A stretch of 64,000 bases of DNA from Chthoniobacteraceae bacterium. GTDB taxonomy: Bacteria; Verrucomicrobiota; Verrucomicrobiia; Chthoniobacterales; Chthoniobacteraceae. Below are positions 31,665 through 39,460 of the stretch, one piece after another. The first letter of the stretch is position 1. The number at the start of each line of letters is the position of its first letter. The translations under genes and the position numbers were made by a program. A model generated the notes under the pieces. That model was not told the DNA's origin. It ran no database searches and saw only the letters and a program-made list of their open reading frames with translations. Location of the stretch: contig CANFTB010000003.1 of assembly GCA_947449735.1 (NCBI GenBank), forward strand, positions 95,456 to 159,455, given 5' to 3'.

Positions 31665-31754
31665 TGGGCACTGGACCAAGCTAGACCGCGCCGGACCAAG
31701 TCTGCGCTCGCGCAGGGTTGGCATTTGCGCCCCCCTGTGAGACAAGTGAGGGTC

Positions 31755-33017
31755 ATGCTCCCCGAACTTGTCTCCCGAATCGTCTCCTCAACGCACCCGC
31801 GTTGCCTAGGCAAGTTCCTTTGGAACTTCGGCGCCAAGACTTTGTGGAGCGTCGAGCGCTTCAAAGCCCGCGTTCGCAGGGGCGAATACTTCCCCGCCTT
31901 CCTCTACATCTCCATCCTCAACTCCTGCAACCTGCGCTGCCAGGGCTGCTGGGTCGACGTGGAGGCCGAACGCTCCCAACTCGACGTGGACGCCGTCAGC
32001 CGCCTCATCGAGGACGCCAAAACCCAAGGTAACCGCTTCTTCGGCCTTCTGGGCGGCGAACCTTTCCTGCACCCGGGCCTCCTCGAAATCCTCGAACGCC
32101 ACCCGGACTGCTACTTCCAAATCTTCACCAACGGCCAGTGCATCACCCCAAAAATCGCCAGGCGGCTGGTCGAACTGGGCAACGCCACCCCGCTGGTCTC
32201 CATTGAAGGCCGGGAAATTGTCAGCAACCAGCGGCGCGGCAACGTCGACGTGCTGCACCGCACCCTCCGCGGCCTGGACGCCTGCCTCGAAGCGGGACTG
32301 CTCACTGGCGTCGCCACCTCCGTTTGCCAGACCAACATCGACGACCTCCTCACGGAAAACTGGCTCCAGGAACTCATCTCCCGCGGCGTCCACTACGTCT
32401 GGTTCCACACCTACCGGCCGGTCGGCCCGAAAATGAACGCCCAGCTCGGGCTCACGCCGGAGCAACTGGTCCAGGTCCGCCGTTTTATCGTCGAAATGCG
32501 CGCCACCATGCCCATCGGCATCGTCGACGCCTACTACGGCCACGACGGCAAGGCCCTTTGCCCCATGTCCACAGGCATCTCTCATCATGTCAGCCCCTAC
32601 GGCGACGTGGAACCCTGCCCGATCATCCAGTTCGCAAAAGAAGGCATCAACGACAAGAGGGGCATCGTCGCCACCCTGCGAGACTCCGCCTTCCTGAAGG
32701 ACTTCCGCGACCTCAGCGCCAAAGCCACCCGCGGATGCGTCGTCCTTGAGCGTCCAGACCTCGTCCGCGACCTCGTCCAGAAACACGGCGCCAAGGACAC
32801 CACGGTGCGCCAGACCGCCATGGCCGAACTCGAAGCCATGGCCCCCCGCTACAGCCAGTGGCTGCCCGGGGACGAAATCCCCGAAAAACACTGGATGTAC
32901 CGTCTTGCCAAACGTTTCTGGTTTAGCGACTTTGGCGCCTACCAGAAGATGGACCCCTCCAGCCGCCCCCGCGCGGAGGCGCTCGCCAAGGCCCCGCCGA
33001 AACGCTCCGCAGCGTGA
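31755..33017 (+). CDS. Radical SAM enzyme
   Basis: 420-residue cytoplasmic radical SAM protein. The cluster-binding motif is CNLRCQGC (Cys58, Cys62, Cys65) in SILNSCNLRCQGCWV. SAM-contact regions LLGGEPFLHP and FTNGQCIT follow, with VSIEGRE later. A C-terminal segment with CPMSTGISHHVSPYGDVEPC contains the extra Cys residues of a SPASM/Twitch-like auxiliary cluster region. GAGG-type Shine-Dalgarno bases (GTGAGGG) lie 3 nt before the ATG at 31755, which decides this start over 31725. It is the first gene of a co-oriented run with a DUF116-polyprenyl synthase fusion, an MFS transporter and an enolase-family enzyme. The substrate is unknown; a role in modifying an isoprenoid or its precursor is inferred from context. 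Confidence 0.88.
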   Translation: MLPELVSRIVSSTHPRCLGKFLWNFGAKTLWSVERFKARVRRGEYFPAFLYISILNSCNLRCQGCWVDVEAERSQLDVDAVSRLIEDAKTQGNRFFGLLGGEPFLHPGLLEILERHPDCYFQIFTNGQCITPKIARRLVELGNATPLVSIEGREIVSNQRRGNVDVLHRTLRGLDACLEAGLLTGVATSVCQTNIDDLLTENWLQELISRGVHYVWFHTYRPVGPKMNAQLGLTPEQLVQVRRFIVEMRATMPIGIVDAYYGHDGKALCPMSTGISHHVSPYGDVEPCPIIQFAKEGINDKRGIVATLRDSAFLKDFRDLSAKATRGCVVLERPDLVRDLVQKHGAKDTTVRQTAMAELEAMAPRYSQWLPGDEIPEKHWMYRLAKRFWFSDFGAYQKMDPSSRPRAEALAKAPPKRSAA

Positions 33018-33080
33018 TTTTCCCAGATACCGCCTAATTACCGCTTCACTGACGGCATCTTCGCCTTAACCAACATCCTT

Positions 33081-34817
33081 ATGTCCGCCCCAGCGACCCT
33101 CTCCGCCCCGCCAGTCCAGCTCACCCTACCCCGCCCAGTGCCGGTACAAAGGGTCCGCAAGCCGAAGAAAAACATCCCCCAGACGCTCGCCGAACGCACC
33201 CGGGTGCTCATGGCGGCGCGCGACTACGTGGAGAAGGAAAAGCCCGTCCCCCCGCTTCCCGCTGACCAGCTCCGGATCCATGCCGACCGCCTAGCCGCGG
33301 ACTTGCAGCTCGACCCCATCTACAGCGACTACGTCGGCGTGCTCATCAACAACGAGCTCTGGCGCGAGACCCTCGCCGCCGTCCCCTACGAGAGACGCCT
33401 CCTCCTCATTCCCAAGTGTCTTCGCGTCGAAAGCAAGTGCCCCGCGCCCTTCGATGAATTCGGCCTCCTGTGCAAACAGTGCGGGCTGTGTTCCATTCAA
33501 GACCTCCAAAACGAGGCCGAACGCCTCGGGTACGCCGTACTCGTCGCCGAGGGTTCCGCCATCGTGATGTCGCTCATTCAAACGGGGAAAATCGAAGCCA
33601 TCGTTGGCGTCAGCTGCCTGAGCGTCCTCGAGCGCGCCTTCCCATACATGGAAGCCGCTGCCGTCCCGGGCGTCGCCGTACCCCTGCTTCAGGACGACTG
33701 CATCGACACCACCGTCGATCTCGACTGGGTCTGGGACTACATCCACCTCACCAGCGACGACCGCACCCGCCGCATGGACCTCGGCGCCCTGCGCGAGGAG
33801 GTCGAATTCTACTTCACCCCGCTCGCCCTCGATTCCATCATGGGCCCGGCCCACGGGGACACCGAACGCATCTCCCGCGAATGGCTGCAGCGCGCCGGAA
33901 AACGCTGGCGGCCCTTCCTCACAGTCGCCGCCTACCAGGCCCTTCAGGCCGAACCCGGCGCCCCAATACCGGACTCCCTCAAAAAGCTCGCCGTCGCTGT
34001 CGAGTGCTTCCACAAAGCGTCCCTCATCCACGACGACATCGAGGACGACGACGCCGAGCGTTACGGCGAAGCCACCCTCCACTCCGAACACGGCGTTCCC
34101 GTCGCCCTCAACGTGGGCGACCTGCTCATCGGCGAAGGCTACCGCCTCCTTTCCGAAAGCGGCTTCAGCTCCGAACAACGCGTCGCCATGCTCCAAGTTG
34201 CCGCCCAGGGCCAGCGCGAACTCTGCCGCGGACAGGGAGCCGAGCTCCACTGGACCCGCAACCCGCGTCCGCTGAATTCCGTCGAGGTCATCGAAATCTT
34301 TGAAAAGAAGACCGCGCCCGCCTTCGCCGTCGCCCTGCACATCGGGGCCATCGCGGCCGGCGTCGACTCCCACGAGGACGTCGCCCCGGTGCTCGAGGCC
34401 TACAGCAAAGCCATGGGTATCGCTTACCAGATCCGCGACGACCTCGAGGACTACACCCAGGGCGGTGTCGGCGCACCCGACGACCTCGAAGCCATGCGCC
34501 CCGGCGTTGTCATGTCCGCCGGATGGGAGCGCGCCCAAGGCGATGCCAAGGACATCCTGACCTCCCGCTGGAAGCGCGAGACCACCCACAACACCGCGGC
34601 AGTGCGCCAGGCCTGCATCGAATCAGGCGCTCTCGACCGCTGCCAGGATCTGCTGGAACGCTATAAGGAGGAGGCCATCCGATCCTTGGCCGAGCTCGAA
34701 AACGCCAGCCTGAAGGGCCTCCTACGCCGGGTCATCGGCAAGATCTTCAACGACACCGAAATCAAGGGCTGGTGCAAGGAGTTCGAGCAGGCCAACGGCG
34801 TCGCGCCCCAAAGCTAA
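33081..34817 (+). CDS. DUF116-polyprenyl diphosphate synthase fusion
   Basis: 578-residue protein with two modules. Residues about 60-225 match DUF116: LIPKCLR (109-115), then Cys113, Cys120 and CKQCGLC (131-137), with VGVSCL and DDCID further on; such a cysteine set could bind an Fe-S cluster. Residues about 260-560 are a trans-isoprenyl diphosphate synthase: GKRWRP (273-278), the first Asp-rich motif HDDIEDDD (317-324) and the second DDLED (453-457), with FEKKTAPAF between. Both Mg2+-diphosphate motifs are intact, so chain elongation from isopentenyl diphosphate is likely. The fusion links prenyl synthesis to a cysteine-rich domain next to a radical SAM enzyme. The product and chain length are unknown. 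Confidence 0.88.
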   Translation: MSAPATLSAPPVQLTLPRPVPVQRVRKPKKNIPQTLAERTRVLMAARDYVEKEKPVPPLPADQLRIHADRLAADLQLDPIYSDYVGVLINNELWRETLAAVPYERRLLLIPKCLRVESKCPAPFDEFGLLCKQCGLCSIQDLQNEAERLGYAVLVAEGSAIVMSLIQTGKIEAIVGVSCLSVLERAFPYMEAAAVPGVAVPLLQDDCIDTTVDLDWVWDYIHLTSDDRTRRMDLGALREEVEFYFTPLALDSIMGPAHGDTERISREWLQRAGKRWRPFLTVAAYQALQAEPGAPIPDSLKKLAVAVECFHKASLIHDDIEDDDAERYGEATLHSEHGVPVALNVGDLLIGEGYRLLSESGFSSEQRVAMLQVAAQGQRELCRGQGAELHWTRNPRPLNSVEVIEIFEKKTAPAFAVALHIGAIAAGVDSHEDVAPVLEAYSKAMGIAYQIRDDLEDYTQGGVGAPDDLEAMRPGVVMSAGWERAQGDAKDILTSRWKRETTHNTAAVRQACIESGALDRCQDLLERYKEEAIRSLAELENASLKGLLRRVIGKIFNDTEIKGWCKEFEQANGVAPQS

Positions 34818-34907
34818 GCCGCGGTCACCGCGCCCCGCCCAAGTCCCACCCCAAACGTCCAGCGCGCTCGGCCCGTCCCCGGCCGCGCGCTCCAACGCAC
34901 CCACCCC

Positions 34908-36161
34908 ATGGTCCAGACAGCACAATCCCCCTCCACCACCCAAAAAGGCATCGCCCTCACCCTGATGGCCGCCTTCCTGGGCTGGCTCCTCGACGGCTTT
35001 GAACTCGGCCTGTTTCCCGTCGTGGCACGCCCTGCGCTCCTCGACATGCTCGGCCCCGGCGGCGAAGGCGCCGTCGGCCAGTGGATGGGCCGCATCACGG
35101 CCGCCTTCCTCGTCGGCGCTGCCCTTGGCGGTGCGCTCTTCGGCTGGCTCGGCGACCGCATCGGCCGCGTCAAAGCCATGTCCTGGAGCATCCTGTGCTA
35201 CTCCCTCTTCAGTGGAGCAGGCTACTTCGCCCATTCCCCCTGGGACCTCGCCGTCCTCCGCTTCATCGCCTCGCTCGGCATGGGCGGCGAATGGGCCCTT
35301 GGCGTGGCCTTGGTCATGGAGTCCTGGCCAGACAACGCCCGCCCCTGGCTCGCCGCCGCCATCGGCGCCGCCTCCAACATCGGCATGTTTCTCGTCGCCC
35401 TCGTCGCCCGAATCTTTCCCGTCACCCCCGACTCCTGGCGCTGGCTGTTCCTCGTGGGCGCATCACCCGCCGTGCTCACCCTGATCGTCCGCATCTGGGT
35501 GCCCGAATCCGAAAAATGGAAGGAAGCCTCCAAGAACTCCAAGGACACCTCCTCCCATCTGGCAACCGTTTTCAGCCCCCCGCTCCTCTTCCCCACCCTC
35601 CTCGGCATCGGCCTTTCCGCCGTCGCCCTCATCGGTTCGTGGGGCAGCGTGCAGTGGATCCCCCTCTGGGTGGACAAAATCACCGGCGGCAACCAGCCCG
35701 ACGCCAAGGCCACCGCCCAGATGATCTCCGCCCTCGGCGCCACCGCCGGCTCCATGCTCGGCCCCCTCATCCTCGCCAAAATGCCGCGCCGCGCCGCCTA
35801 CGGCACCCTCTGCCTGCTCGCCCTCCTTGCCAGCGCGTGGACCTTCCGCTTCCCCGCCGACTGGGGAAACCTCTTCCTCTTCAAAGTCGGCTGCATCGCC
35901 TTCACAACCGCCTCCTTCTACGGCTTTTTTCCCCTCTATTTCCCGGAACTCTTCCCCACGCGCGTCCGAGCCACCGGACAGGGCATCTGCTACAACGCAG
36001 GGCGCATCATCGCCGCCTTCGGCGCGCTCGCCAGCGGACAGCTCGTCACGCACTTCGGCGGCTACGCCGAAATGGGCGCCGTTGTGACCCTCGTCTACGT
36101 CATCGGCATCATGCTCTGCTTCACCGCGCCGGAAACCTACGGCAAACCCCTTCCCAAGTAA
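34908..36161 (+). CDS. Major facilitator superfamily transporter
   Basis: 417-residue inner-membrane transporter with about 12 predicted membrane segments. MFS hallmarks are GWLGDRIGRVKAM between TM2 and TM3, RFIASLGMGGEWALG in TM4, and PELFPTRVRATGQGICYNAG in the second half. These resemble the sugar/aromatic-acid:H+ symporter branch. Position between the prenyl synthase fusion (90 bp upstream) and the enolase-family gene (18 bp downstream) suggests export of a pathway product or import of its substrate. Specificity cannot be read from the sequence. Confidence 0.88.
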   Translation: MVQTAQSPSTTQKGIALTLMAAFLGWLLDGFELGLFPVVARPALLDMLGPGGEGAVGQWMGRITAAFLVGAALGGALFGWLGDRIGRVKAMSWSILCYSLFSGAGYFAHSPWDLAVLRFIASLGMGGEWALGVALVMESWPDNARPWLAAAIGAASNIGMFLVALVARIFPVTPDSWRWLFLVGASPAVLTLIVRIWVPESEKWKEASKNSKDTSSHLATVFSPPLLFPTLLGIGLSAVALIGSWGSVQWIPLWVDKITGGNQPDAKATAQMISALGATAGSMLGPLILAKMPRRAAYGTLCLLALLASAWTFRFPADWGNLFLFKVGCIAFTTASFYGFFPLYFPELFPTRVRATGQGICYNAGRIIAAFGALASGQLVTHFGGYAEMGAVVTLVYVIGIMLCFTAPETYGKPLPK

Positions 36162-36179
36162 CCCCACCTCTCCGGAGCC

Positions 36180-37592
36180 ATGAACCCAACCGACATCCGC
36201 ATCCGGTCCGCACGCTGGTTTCCCATCCCCATCGAAACACGCGTCCCCCTCAAATTCGGAACCGAGACCGTCACGGAAGTCGTCTGCGCCCGCGTCTGCC
36301 TGGAGGTCGAACGCCCCGACGGCTCCGTGGCAACCGGCTGGGGCGAGACCCCGCTCGGCGTCCAGTGGGTCTGGCCGTCCTCCATCCCCTACCAGGAGCG
36401 CCTCGACGTCCTCACAAACTTCTGCGACGCCCTCACGGACGCCTACGCCTCCTGCCCCGCCTCCGGCCACGCCTTCGAAATCGGCCACCATTTCATCGAG
36501 CATTCCCTCCCCGCCCTGCGCGATCGCATCAACGCCACCCTCCCGGCCCATCTCGAAATTCCCGTCCTCGCAGCCATCGTCTGCGCCTCGCCCTTCGACA
36601 TCGCCCTCCACGACGCCTACGGCATCGCCAACGGCGTCCCGACCTACACCACCTACCGCTCCCCCTGGCTGCGCTCGGACCTCTCCTCCTACCTCACGCC
36701 CGCAACCGACAGCCCCGACGTCAGCTTTCAGGGAAAATTCCCCGCCGACTTTTTCCGCCCCCAACCCGAATCCCGCCTTGTCGCCTGGCACCTCGTCGGC
36801 GGCCTCGACCCGCTGACCGACTCCGACCCCGGCGCAGGCTCCGTCTCCGACGGCTACCCCACCACGCTGGTGGAATGGATCCAGCGCGACGGCCTCGAGG
36901 CATTGAAGGTCAAACTGCGCGGAAACGACTCCGCCTGGGACTACGAGCGCCTCAAACGCGTCGCCGAGATCGGCCTCGAACGCGGCGTGCACCTGTTCAC
37001 CGCGGACTTCAACTGCACTGTCACCGACCCCGCCTACGTCACGGACATCCTCGACAAGGTCCGCGCCGAACTTCCGGAGCTTTGGGAAAAACTCGCGTAC
37101 GTTGAACAGCCCTTTCCCTACGAACTGGAAAAACACCCCATCCCCGTTCATTCGGTCAGCGAAAGGGTGCCCTTGTTCCTTGATGAAAGCGCCCACGACT
37201 GGCAGTTGGTGCGCTTCGGCCGCGAACTCGGCTGGAACGGCGTCGCCCTCAAGACCTGCAAGACCCAGACCGGCGCTCTCCTCAGCCTTTGCTGGGCGCG
37301 GGCCCACGGCATGCAGCTGATGGTCCAGGACCTCACCAACCCGATGCTGGCCCAGATCACCCACGTTCTGCTGGCAGCCCACGCCCCCACTCTCGCCGGT
37401 GTGGAAACCAACGGCATGCAATTCTACCCCGACGCCTCAGCGCCCGAAGCCGAAGTGCATCCCGGCCTCTACAGCCGGCGCGGCGGCCACGTCGACCTCT
37501 CCTCCATCAGCGGCCCGGGGTTCGGCTACCATCTGGACGCCATCCAACGCGACCTGCCCCAGCCCAGGCACTCCGCCTCCCGCCCGGCCTGA
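36180..37592 (+). CDS. Enolase-superfamily enzyme (muconate-lactonizing/dipeptide-epimerase-like)
   Basis: 470-residue member of the enolase superfamily. The barrel residues are in place: KxK (Lys243, Lys245 in ALKVKLRG), metal ligands Asp276 (TADFN), Glu309 (YVEQPFP) and Asp335 (LFLDES), and Lys358/Lys361 (LKTCKTQTG). The KxK plus opposite Lys arrangement places it in the muconate-lactonizing-enzyme subgroup, which abstracts an alpha-proton next to a carboxylate and includes racemases, cycloisomerases and o-succinylbenzoate synthases. At 470 residues it is longer than the usual 350-400, with an extended region around 160-230. A GGAG Shine-Dalgarno sequence lies just before the ATG. It ends the putative operon. 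Confidence 0.86.
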   Translation: MNPTDIRIRSARWFPIPIETRVPLKFGTETVTEVVCARVCLEVERPDGSVATGWGETPLGVQWVWPSSIPYQERLDVLTNFCDALTDAYASCPASGHAFEIGHHFIEHSLPALRDRINATLPAHLEIPVLAAIVCASPFDIALHDAYGIANGVPTYTTYRSPWLRSDLSSYLTPATDSPDVSFQGKFPADFFRPQPESRLVAWHLVGGLDPLTDSDPGAGSVSDGYPTTLVEWIQRDGLEALKVKLRGNDSAWDYERLKRVAEIGLERGVHLFTADFNCTVTDPAYVTDILDKVRAELPELWEKLAYVEQPFPYELEKHPIPVHSVSERVPLFLDESAHDWQLVRFGRELGWNGVALKTCKTQTGALLSLCWARAHGMQLMVQDLTNPMLAQITHVLLAAHAPTLAGVETNGMQFYPDASAPEAEVHPGLYSRRGGHVDLSSISGPGFGYHLDAIQRDLPQPRHSASRPA

Positions 37593-37735
37593 GGCGGACC
37601 CCAGCCATTCGGGCGGCCGACCCGCCGGCTGCCAGAAAGTCCTCCCCTTCACGCCCCTCCCGCTCCGTCGACCGCCAAATAACCCAGACGGCGGGGAGAC
37701 CGCGGGCGCAAACGCTGACACCCACGCACCGCACC

Positions 37736-39460
37736 ATGTCAGACCGCCTTCAAATCATCTCGATCCGTTTTTCAAACTACAAGGCCTACCGCGACTACAC
37801 CGTTCCCCTCGACGCCTTCAACATGCTGGTCGGCCCCAACAACGCCGGCAAGTCCACCATCATCGGCTCGCTTCGCATCCTCAGCGAAGGTCTCCGCCGC
37901 GCGCGCGCACGCTCCTCGGACCGCGTCGAGGGCCCCGACGGCACGGAAGTCCCGGGCTACCCCATCAAGCTCGAAAAACTCCCCGTCTCCACCGAAAACG
38001 TCTTCCACAACTACGACAACTCCTCGCCTGCGACCGTCACCTTCCAGCTCTCAAACGGAAACACGCTCATCCTCCTTTTTGCTTCCGCGGGCGAATGCGT
38101 CCTCATCCCCTGCGGTGCCCGCCACATCCGCACTCCCACCGACTTCAAGCGGGAGTTCAACCTGCAGGTGGCCTTCGTGCCGGTCCTCGGGCCCGTCGAA
38201 CACAACGAGACCCTCCACGAAAAGGACACCGCCCGGAACGCCCTTCTCTCGCACAGCGCCTCCCGCAACTTCCGAAACATCTGGTACCACTTCCCGGACG
38301 GCTTTGATGAGTTTCAAAAAATGGTAAAGACCACGTGGCCGGGCATGGACATTCTCCCTCCCGAACTCACCATGCGGGATTCGAAGGCCATCCTCTGCAT
38401 GTTCTGTCCGGAGCACCGCATCATCCGCGAAATTTTCTGGGCGGGCTTCGGGTTTCAGGTCTGGTGCCAGATGCTCACGTTCATCGTCCAAGCGCGCCGC
38501 GCCTCGCTGCTCATCGTCGACGAACCCGACATCTACCTCCACGCCGACCTCCAGCGGCAACTCGTGGGCATCCTCAAAAATCTCGGCCCCGACATCATCG
38601 TCGCCACCCACTCGGTGGAGATGATCTCCGAGGTCGAATCCCACTCGCTCCTCCACGTAAACAAGCACTTCCCCGAGGCCCGCCGCCTCCCGCAAACCGC
38701 CCTGCTCCACGACCTCTCCGCCGTCCTTGGCCCCCAGCTCAACCCCCTCCTTGCACAGCTCGCCAAAACTCGGCGCGTCGTCTTTGTCGAAAGCCACGAC
38801 TTCCAAATCCTCTTCCGCCTCGCGCGCGTCCTCGGCCTGGAGATCCTCGCAAACCGCTCCGATTTCGCCGTCATTCCCGTCCCCGGCCGCACCCCGGGGG
38901 GCGTCGAAAAGATCGCCTCCCAACTGGAGGAAACCCTCGGCCTGAAGCTCCTCAAAACAGCCATCTTCTCCAAAGGCCCCCGAAGCGACTCCGAAGCCCG
39001 TGCCCTCCTGAACGCTCTCGAAGGATTCTGCACCTTCGCGGCGGTTATTCCGGGCGCAGACCTTGAAAGCCTGCTGCTGTGCCCGGAAGCCATCCACAGA
39101 GCCGTCTTACAGCGACAGGAAGAATCTAAGCGCACTGGGGCGCCGAACCCCTCCGAACCCGCGGACATCCCCGCTCTTCTGGAGGAAATTTACACCTCCC
39201 TGAAGAAGGCCGGGAGCGGCCCGTCGATTCAATCCGCGCACCAATCTGACTTCGCATCCGGCCTCCACGCCGGGGTCGTGTCCGGCGGGGCGGTGCTCTC
39301 CCTTCTGAATCAGGCCCTGAAACGGCTCCATCTTCCAGGCATCTCAAGCTCGGCCATCGCGAAATGCCTCCTGCCCGCGGAGCTTTGGCCGGAGGCCGTC
39401 TCAGCCCTCCAAATGCTGGAAACCGCCCGCCTCACCCCCCCGAAAGACGGCCCGGCCTAG
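37736..39460 (+). CDS. OLD-family ATPase with degenerate Toprim region
   Basis: 574-residue P-loop ATPase of the OLD (overcoming lysogenization defect) type. The N-terminal ABC-like ATPase has Walker A GPNNAGKST (33-41), a Q-loop/signature-like GFGFQVW near 237-243, Walker B LLIVDEPD (258-265) and the His switch ATHSVEM (290-296). The C-terminal part begins RRVVFVESHDFQIL, matching the first Toprim strand and its catalytic Glu (352). The later DxD motif is not found, and its place has FSKGPRSDSE, so nuclease activity is doubtful. OLD proteins act in phage defence (for example with UvrD-like GajB) or DNA repair, but no helicase is adjacent here. The ClpP-like gene follows after 85 bp. Confidence 0.85.
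   Translation: MSDRLQIISIRFSNYKAYRDYTVPLDAFNMLVGPNNAGKSTIIGSLRILSEGLRRARARSSDRVEGPDGTEVPGYPIKLEKLPVSTENVFHNYDNSSPATVTFQLSNGNTLILLFASAGECVLIPCGARHIRTPTDFKREFNLQVAFVPVLGPVEHNETLHEKDTARNALLSHSASRNFRNIWYHFPDGFDEFQKMVKTTWPGMDILPPELTMRDSKAILCMFCPEHRIIREIFWAGFGFQVWCQMLTFIVQARRASLLIVDEPDIYLHADLQRQLVGILKNLGPDIIVATHSVEMISEVESHSLLHVNKHFPEARRLPQTALLHDLSAVLGPQLNPLLAQLAKTRRVVFVESHDFQILFRLARVLGLEILANRSDFAVIPVPGRTPGGVEKIASQLEETLGLKLLKTAIFSKGPRSDSEARALLNALEGFCTFAAVIPGADLESLLLCPEAIHRAVLQRQEESKRTGAPNPSEPADIPALLEEIYTSLKKAGSGPSIQSAHQSDFASGLHAGVVSGGAVLSLLNQALKRLHLPGISSSAIAKCLLPAELWPEAVSALQMLETARLTPPKDGPA

Follow-up and report, generated by a model that had tools for sequence, protein, structure and literature searches.

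The genes for the radical SAM protein (rSAM) and for the DUF116-polyprenyl synthase fusion described here belong to a five-gene set whose members nearly always co-occur in the tested genomes of Verrucomicrobiota, even when they are scattered. The functional unit consists of the genes for rSAM, the fusion, a cyclase, a single-toroid protein and a ferredoxin-like protein, and not of the four adjacent genes of the window (the whole stretch of 64,000 nucleotides that was analysed). Judging from the sequences, we consider it fairly probable that this set makes a cyclic, hopanoid-like terpenoid lipid and does not depend on squalene synthase to do so.

The window locus and its proteins

The first-pass annotation presented the locus as a cluster of four co-directional genes with gaps of 63, 90 and 18 bp; all four open reading frames are indeed on the plus strand, and the gap lengths are exact.

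31755..33017, plus strand: radical SAM (rSAM) gene; ATG start at 31755, with TTG at 31725 as an alternative start
33081..34817, plus strand: DUF116-polyprenyl synthase fusion, 578 aa (Pfam, both domains)
33324..33740, plus strand: DUF116 domain of the fusion, residues 82-220 (PF01976, E 7e-36)
33867..34610, plus strand: trans-polyprenyl synthase domain of the fusion, residues 263-510 (PF00348, polyprenyl_synt, E 1.9e-42)
34908..36161, plus strand: MFS transporter gene (MFS_1 above the Pfam cut-off)
36180..37592, plus strand: MR/MLE enolase-superfamily gene (MR_MLE_C, E 6.9e-11)

A further open reading frame of the window (37289-39460, plus strand) follows the enolase-like gene and contains the stretch RFSNYKAYRDY...GPNNAGKST, which by eye looks like the start of an AAA/OLD-type ATPase.

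The radical SAM motif reported as intact, CNLRCQGC, is found in the sequence, and the Radical_SAM Pfam match (E 3e-13) is above the cut-off; together with the fold matches they place the protein in the radical SAM superfamily. The CxxxCxxC cysteines are kept in 63-64 of 65 sequences and three C-terminal cysteines in all 65, a number sufficient for a twitch-like cluster; a SPASM Pfam match was sought and none was found at E 0.001. The best structural matches of the predicted model (pLDDT 93.8) are SPASM/twitch-type enzymes, and the NCBIfam matches include NirJ and AhbC/AhbD of the heme pathway, which score far under their cut-offs.

The fusion had been described as a DUF116 module with about six conserved cysteines joined to a synthase with both Asp-rich motifs intact. 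The domain assignment stands, as given by the PF01976 match (123.5 bits against a cut-off of 25) and the conserved cysteines, the number of which is seven rather than six (Cys113, 120, 131, 134, 137, 179 and 207, every one of which is conserved in 124 or 125 of the 125 sequences). Both Asp-rich motifs are present in the window protein, the first as DDIED and the second as DDLED; D318, D319 and D322 of the first occur in all 125 sequences, and HKASL is invariant in the synthase domain. The two motifs and the all-alpha fold identify this domain as a trans-polyprenyl diphosphate synthase. The matches obtained in a structure search with the predicted model (pLDDT 88) are filled by the synthase domain, which has the normal trans-prenyl synthase fold. 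In the DUF116 part of the model, strands alternate with helices. An invariant Ala stands five residues before DDIED; we take an Ala at this position to follow the rule for prenyl products longer than C20, so that the product of the fusion is probably longer than C20.

Of the 7,998 proteins scored in a protein search with the fusion, 7,206 matched at E 1e-30 or lower, and both Pfam domains are present in all 120 fusion homologues among the matches listed. The fusion was matched at E<1e-80 in 64 of 387 genomes of the phylum, including that of the window; in two of these carriers (G205 and G218) it is split in two. Synthase-only relatives were also noticed (G230:C18:50121-51050, in L173, and G326:C20:103611-104540), with 39% identity to the fusion over residues 243-558; both genomes also carry the full fusion, and the synthase-only copy is possibly a paralogue without DUF116. 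Fusions 61-81% identical to that of the window stand under the titles Akkermansia muciniphila, Proteobacteria or Acidobacteria (L041, L070, L104, L110 and others); such titles of metagenome-assembled genomes may be wrong or loosely assigned.

Selenocysteine or another recoding was considered on account of TGA codons inside some fusion and cyclase matches, and was dropped after six of them were translated: in five the stop closes the aligned stretch, and the fusion of G007, translated over a somewhat shorter stretch, has no stop. Further rows with stops, beyond these six, include the cyclase matches in G214 and G197 and several toroid and ferredoxin-like matches.

The transporter and the enolase-family enzyme were correctly recognised as such. 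The MFS_1 match confirms the former; for the latter, the MR_MLE_C match is above the cut-off, the metal and base residues (KxK, D, E, D, K) can be found by eye, and the PF13378 score (42.7 against 29.4 bits) places the protein in the MR/MLE enolase superfamily. NCBIfam gives for it only a weak DgcA match (22.1 bits against a cut-off of 400), and no solved relative was found by sequence at E 0.001.

Conserved neighbourhoods and co-occurrence

Two sets of loci were compared. The first comprises the best 80 of 520 relatives from a scan of genome contigs with the fusion and includes Chthoniobacter flavus, a Verrucomicrobium and Prosthecobacter; the second comprises 60 further loci from the search of 387 genomes, which are for the most part more divergent. 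The two sets share at least one contig (L096 and L167), and one of the 60 further loci, L173, holds the synthase-only relative and not the fusion. In the total of 140 loci, clustering of open reading frames placed the fusion family in 124, and the profile search found it in all 140, L173 included.

The clustering revealed a ferredoxin-like gene upstream of rSAM, a single-toroid gene (PF00432) directly downstream of the fusion and, after it, a squalene-hopene-cyclase-like gene. Positions were then counted by profiles, only at loci with enough flank. The rSAM gene is upstream of the fusion in 30 of 63 loci of the 80-locus set and in 33 of 48 further loci, and the ferredoxin-like gene in 22 of 59 and 33 of 45, respectively; downstream are the toroid gene (18/60 and 38/53) and the cyclase gene (just 6/52 in the 80-locus set, and 26/48). 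All five families meet in 32 of the 140 loci, only 8 from the 80-locus set and 24 from the 60 further ones. In the latter set, matches to rSAM and to the fusion frequently overlap. Pairwise distances of the fusion, rSAM, cyclase and toroid proteins correlate (r 0.83-0.92; 276 pairs from 24 chosen full-cluster loci), for which the common ancestry of the genomes could by itself be a sufficient explanation.

The two remaining genes of the window behave differently. The MFS gene accompanies the fusion in 5 and the enolase-like gene in 3 of the 80 loci, always downstream (both in L039, L041 and L043), and neither does so in the 60 further loci; as many loci are cut by contig ends, the counts are minimum values. 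They accompany the fusion only in close relatives, and we judge them to be lineage-specific and outside the module. The expectation that the four genes would co-occur in other genomes as one unit fails in the neighbourhoods of both genes, and the same counts lend no support to a pathway that includes transport and an enolase acting on a carboxylate. The boundaries drawn in the first-pass annotation are therefore right for rSAM and the fusion and wrong for the other two genes, and three partners were missed.

Some lineages have additional neighbours. At L101:1077-5168 and several other loci, genes for a cysteine-desulfurase-like aminotransferase, a GcvH-like protein and a CobW-like GTPase are upstream of the module; all 14 copies of the GcvH-like protein in the alignment have the lipoyl lysine, and the protein scores under the curated GcvH cut-offs. 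In other lineages a block with PQQ/BamB-like beta-propellers, an NHL-repeat protein, a TAT-type 4Fe-4S protein and a NapH-like polyferredoxin recurs beside the module (L142:80-5722, L152:13078-18661, L132:1559-6955).

Co-occurrence was assessed in 80 genomes of the phylum, 50 of the 64 fusion-positive and 30 of the 323 fusion-negative ones, selected by us rather than at random and mostly as the more complete assemblies. The cyclase (E 1e-50) was found in 49, rSAM (E 1e-50) in 47, the toroid protein (E 1e-25) in 49 and the ferredoxin-like protein (E 1e-25) in all 50 of the fusion-positive genomes, and each in none of the 30 fusion-negative ones; the profiles were built from carrier sequences, many of them within the 80 genomes, only part of the candidates was scored where these were many (in some genomes of both kinds), and genomes of one family do not count as independent. 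The supposed partnership of rSAM with DUF116 is borne out by these figures. The profile searches at the same thresholds did not find rSAM in carriers G209, G124 and G114, the cyclase in G341 or the toroid protein in G209, which may reflect assembly gaps, divergence or real absence; if real, the absence of rSAM in its three genomes would mean that it is dispensable. Families f23, f24, f28, f31 and f40 hold both fusion-positive and fusion-negative genomes, and the module genes go together there, with the exception of G209 in f40, which is without rSAM and toroid.

The genome of the window itself illustrates the scattering. Its cyclase is encoded at C4:117908-119674 with the toroid gene adjoining at 119695-120621, and its ferredoxin-like protein, split into two genes, is on contig C20; since the partners missing from the window sit on these contigs, the module is complete and lies in three places. 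In C. flavus Ellin428 it is in two parts, the fusion, toroid and cyclase in L194 and rSAM in L195, with the ferredoxin-like match on the same contig as rSAM.

The cyclase substrate, the proposed route and its rivals

The cyclase of the window genome has the motif VPDADDT, aligned in the family over DVDDTA of squalene-hopene cyclase 1gsz; D355, D357 and D358 are invariant in 22 sequences. Both SQHop_cyclase domains, N and C, score above the cut-off, which makes it a class II (DxDD) cyclase. The best solved relative of the family is the squalene-hopene cyclase chain 1gsz (profile match, E 1e-37), and the source names of the homologues listed, where given, are mostly squalene-hopene or tetraprenyl-curcumene cyclase. 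The copy of the window genome reaches 80.2 bits, far short of the 431.1 bits that serve as the equivalog cut-off for hopene cyclases.

Squalene/phytoene synthase (PF00494) was sought in the same genomes: 39 of the 50 carriers gave no match, and 11, including the window genome, gave one, as did 12 of the 30 fusion-negative genomes. Squalene is thus a possible substrate in these 11 carriers. Supply of tetraprenyl-curcumene was rejected, as the tetraprenyl-beta-curcumene synthase family (PF10776, YtpB) was found in none of the 80 genomes, while the B. subtilis control was found. As far as the assemblies show, the cyclase substrate is hence made without these enzymes in the 39 carriers. We infer that the fusion is its obvious source, scavenged squalene being another possibility.

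The ferredoxin-like protein has an N-terminal half that may be HdrA-like, going by the pattern CxC...DLC...ACxPR; a PDB profile search with its family lists HdrA chains, the best stretch being in the ferredoxin part of the profile. Protein prenylation of the zinc type by the toroid protein is disfavoured. When toroid sequence A4 is read against the Rab GGTase motif, the Asp appears to be kept (PDLLST) and the Cys and His ligand positions do not.

A dedicated prenyl-diphosphate pathway, as anticipated for the locus, is likely, and the following route may be proposed. The synthase domain would build up an all-trans polyprenyl diphosphate, the length of which probably exceeds C20. The DUF116 domain, with its seven cysteines, and rSAM would then alter the prenyl chain by Fe-S chemistry in place of squalene synthase; reductive loss of diphosphate, reduction and radical C-C bond formation are the candidates, with electrons presumably supplied to both by the ferredoxin-like protein. 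The squalene-hopene-cyclase-like protein would protonate the chain through its DxDDT motif and close the rings, perhaps in cooperation with the single-toroid protein. The GcvH-like lipoyl protein, the CobW-like GTPase and the cysteine desulfurase encoded upstream in some lineages may serve the Fe-S enzymes. The module would fall within terpenoid biosynthesis, with a chance of new Fe-S chemistry. It is tempting to go further and to suppose that the reductive removal or coupling of polyprenyl diphosphates, by Fe-S and radical chemistry of the DUF116-synthase, rSAM and the ferredoxin, takes over the part of squalene synthase, and that the DxDDT cyclase converts the resulting linear polyprene into a hitherto unseen, phylum-wide class of polycyclic lipids; this stronger version we put forward only tentatively.

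Alternatively, the lipid product of the module could resemble a quinone or a tetrapyrrole instead of a sterol or a hopanoid, and be a redox cofactor with a prenyl tail. The Fe-S proteins would then build the head group, and the cyclase would fold the tail at its end. The NapH-like, TAT-ferredoxin and beta-propeller (PQQ) genes found repeatedly next to the module in some lineages suggest electron transfer and not a membrane lipid, which keeps this reading alive; NirJ and AhbC/AhbD among the rSAM matches, though far below the cut-offs, agree with it. So does the tie of standalone DUF116 to sulfite/nitrite reductase genes and electron transfer, as reported in the part of PMC5898192 available to us. 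However, no UbiA-type transferase or methyltransferase was found among the 20 neighbour proteins run through Pfam, and the closest folds of rSAM are peptide-modifying SPASM/twitch enzymes. We regard this reading as unlikely, yet worth keeping in mind.

Less plausible still is a set of hopanoid-tailoring genes around a squalene-hopene cyclase of the ordinary kind. The relationship to 1gsz and the names of the homologues agree with this, but the score of the window genome cyclase, far under the equivalog cut-off, and the 39 carriers in which squalene/phytoene synthase was not found speak against it.

We give very little credence to the idea that the fusion is a housekeeping polyprenyl synthase whose DUF116 domain senses the redox state: the normal fold of the synthase domain would suit such an enzyme, but the fusion is present in 64 of the 387 genomes and not in all. 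Moreover, the window genome has three further PF00348 matches, and the two readable proteins among them show what we take to be FPP-type and long-chain-type motifs, so that the fusion need not be the housekeeping enzyme. Finally, the pathway of four genes, in which the prenyl product is exported by the MFS protein and the enolase acts on a carboxylate, is hardly credible, since the shared direction, the short gaps and the three loci with both genes downstream are outweighed by the locus counts, which largely refute it.

Relation to known systems

Polycyclic terpenoids give order to bacterial membranes and are used as molecular fossils. Some public entries label the cyclases considered here squalene-hopene cyclase, and gene surveys of hopanoid producers may consequently count Verrucomicrobiota that would make something else. 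If the proposed terpenoid route is true, DUF116, a domain of unknown function, would gain a testable catalytic role, and DxDDT cyclases could be supplied by a further means that does without squalene synthase.

The squalene-hopene cyclase of the hopanoid route and the cyclase of the module are both two-toroid class II enzymes with DxDDT; one difference is in the partners, which in the module are Fe-S proteins and the DUF116 fusion. The sesquarterpene route of Bacillus (HepS/T, YtpB, SqhC) is similar in that a polyprenyl synthase is followed by an SHC-like cyclase and squalene is not involved; in the module, however, Fe-S partners appear instead of the YtpB-family gene, which is in 0 of 80 genomes. 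In comparison with the SPASM/twitch enzymes SkfB, SuiB, anSME, BlsE, PqqE and MoaA, rSAM is only 14-18% identical, has only three conserved C-terminal cysteines, and presumably acts on a prenyl lipid.

The fusion as such is already in print, while a description of the five-gene module was not found among the matches listed in the open-licence literature searched (DUF116 and combinations), nor in the accessible parts of PMC8692599 and PMC3505017. In the portion of their article that we could consult, Makarova and co-workers report a polyprenyl synthetase fusion of DUF116/arCOG02078 in Psta_0175 of Pirellula staleyi, the same domain fusion as in the window protein; conserved cysteines including CxxCxxC are noted for DUF116/arCOG02078, and a flavodoxin-like fold is proposed (PMC5898192). 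The role considered in that portion is electron transfer, and the cyclase, toroid, rSAM and ferredoxin partners are not named in it (PMC5898192). The closest analogy on the side of the substrate is offered by the fungal TvTS and MpMS, which the consulted part of PMC9177416 describes as chimeric class I non-squalene triterpene synthases: there, too, a polyprenyl diphosphate is cyclised instead of squalene, whereas the module has a separate class II DxDDT cyclase and carries DUF116 on its synthase.
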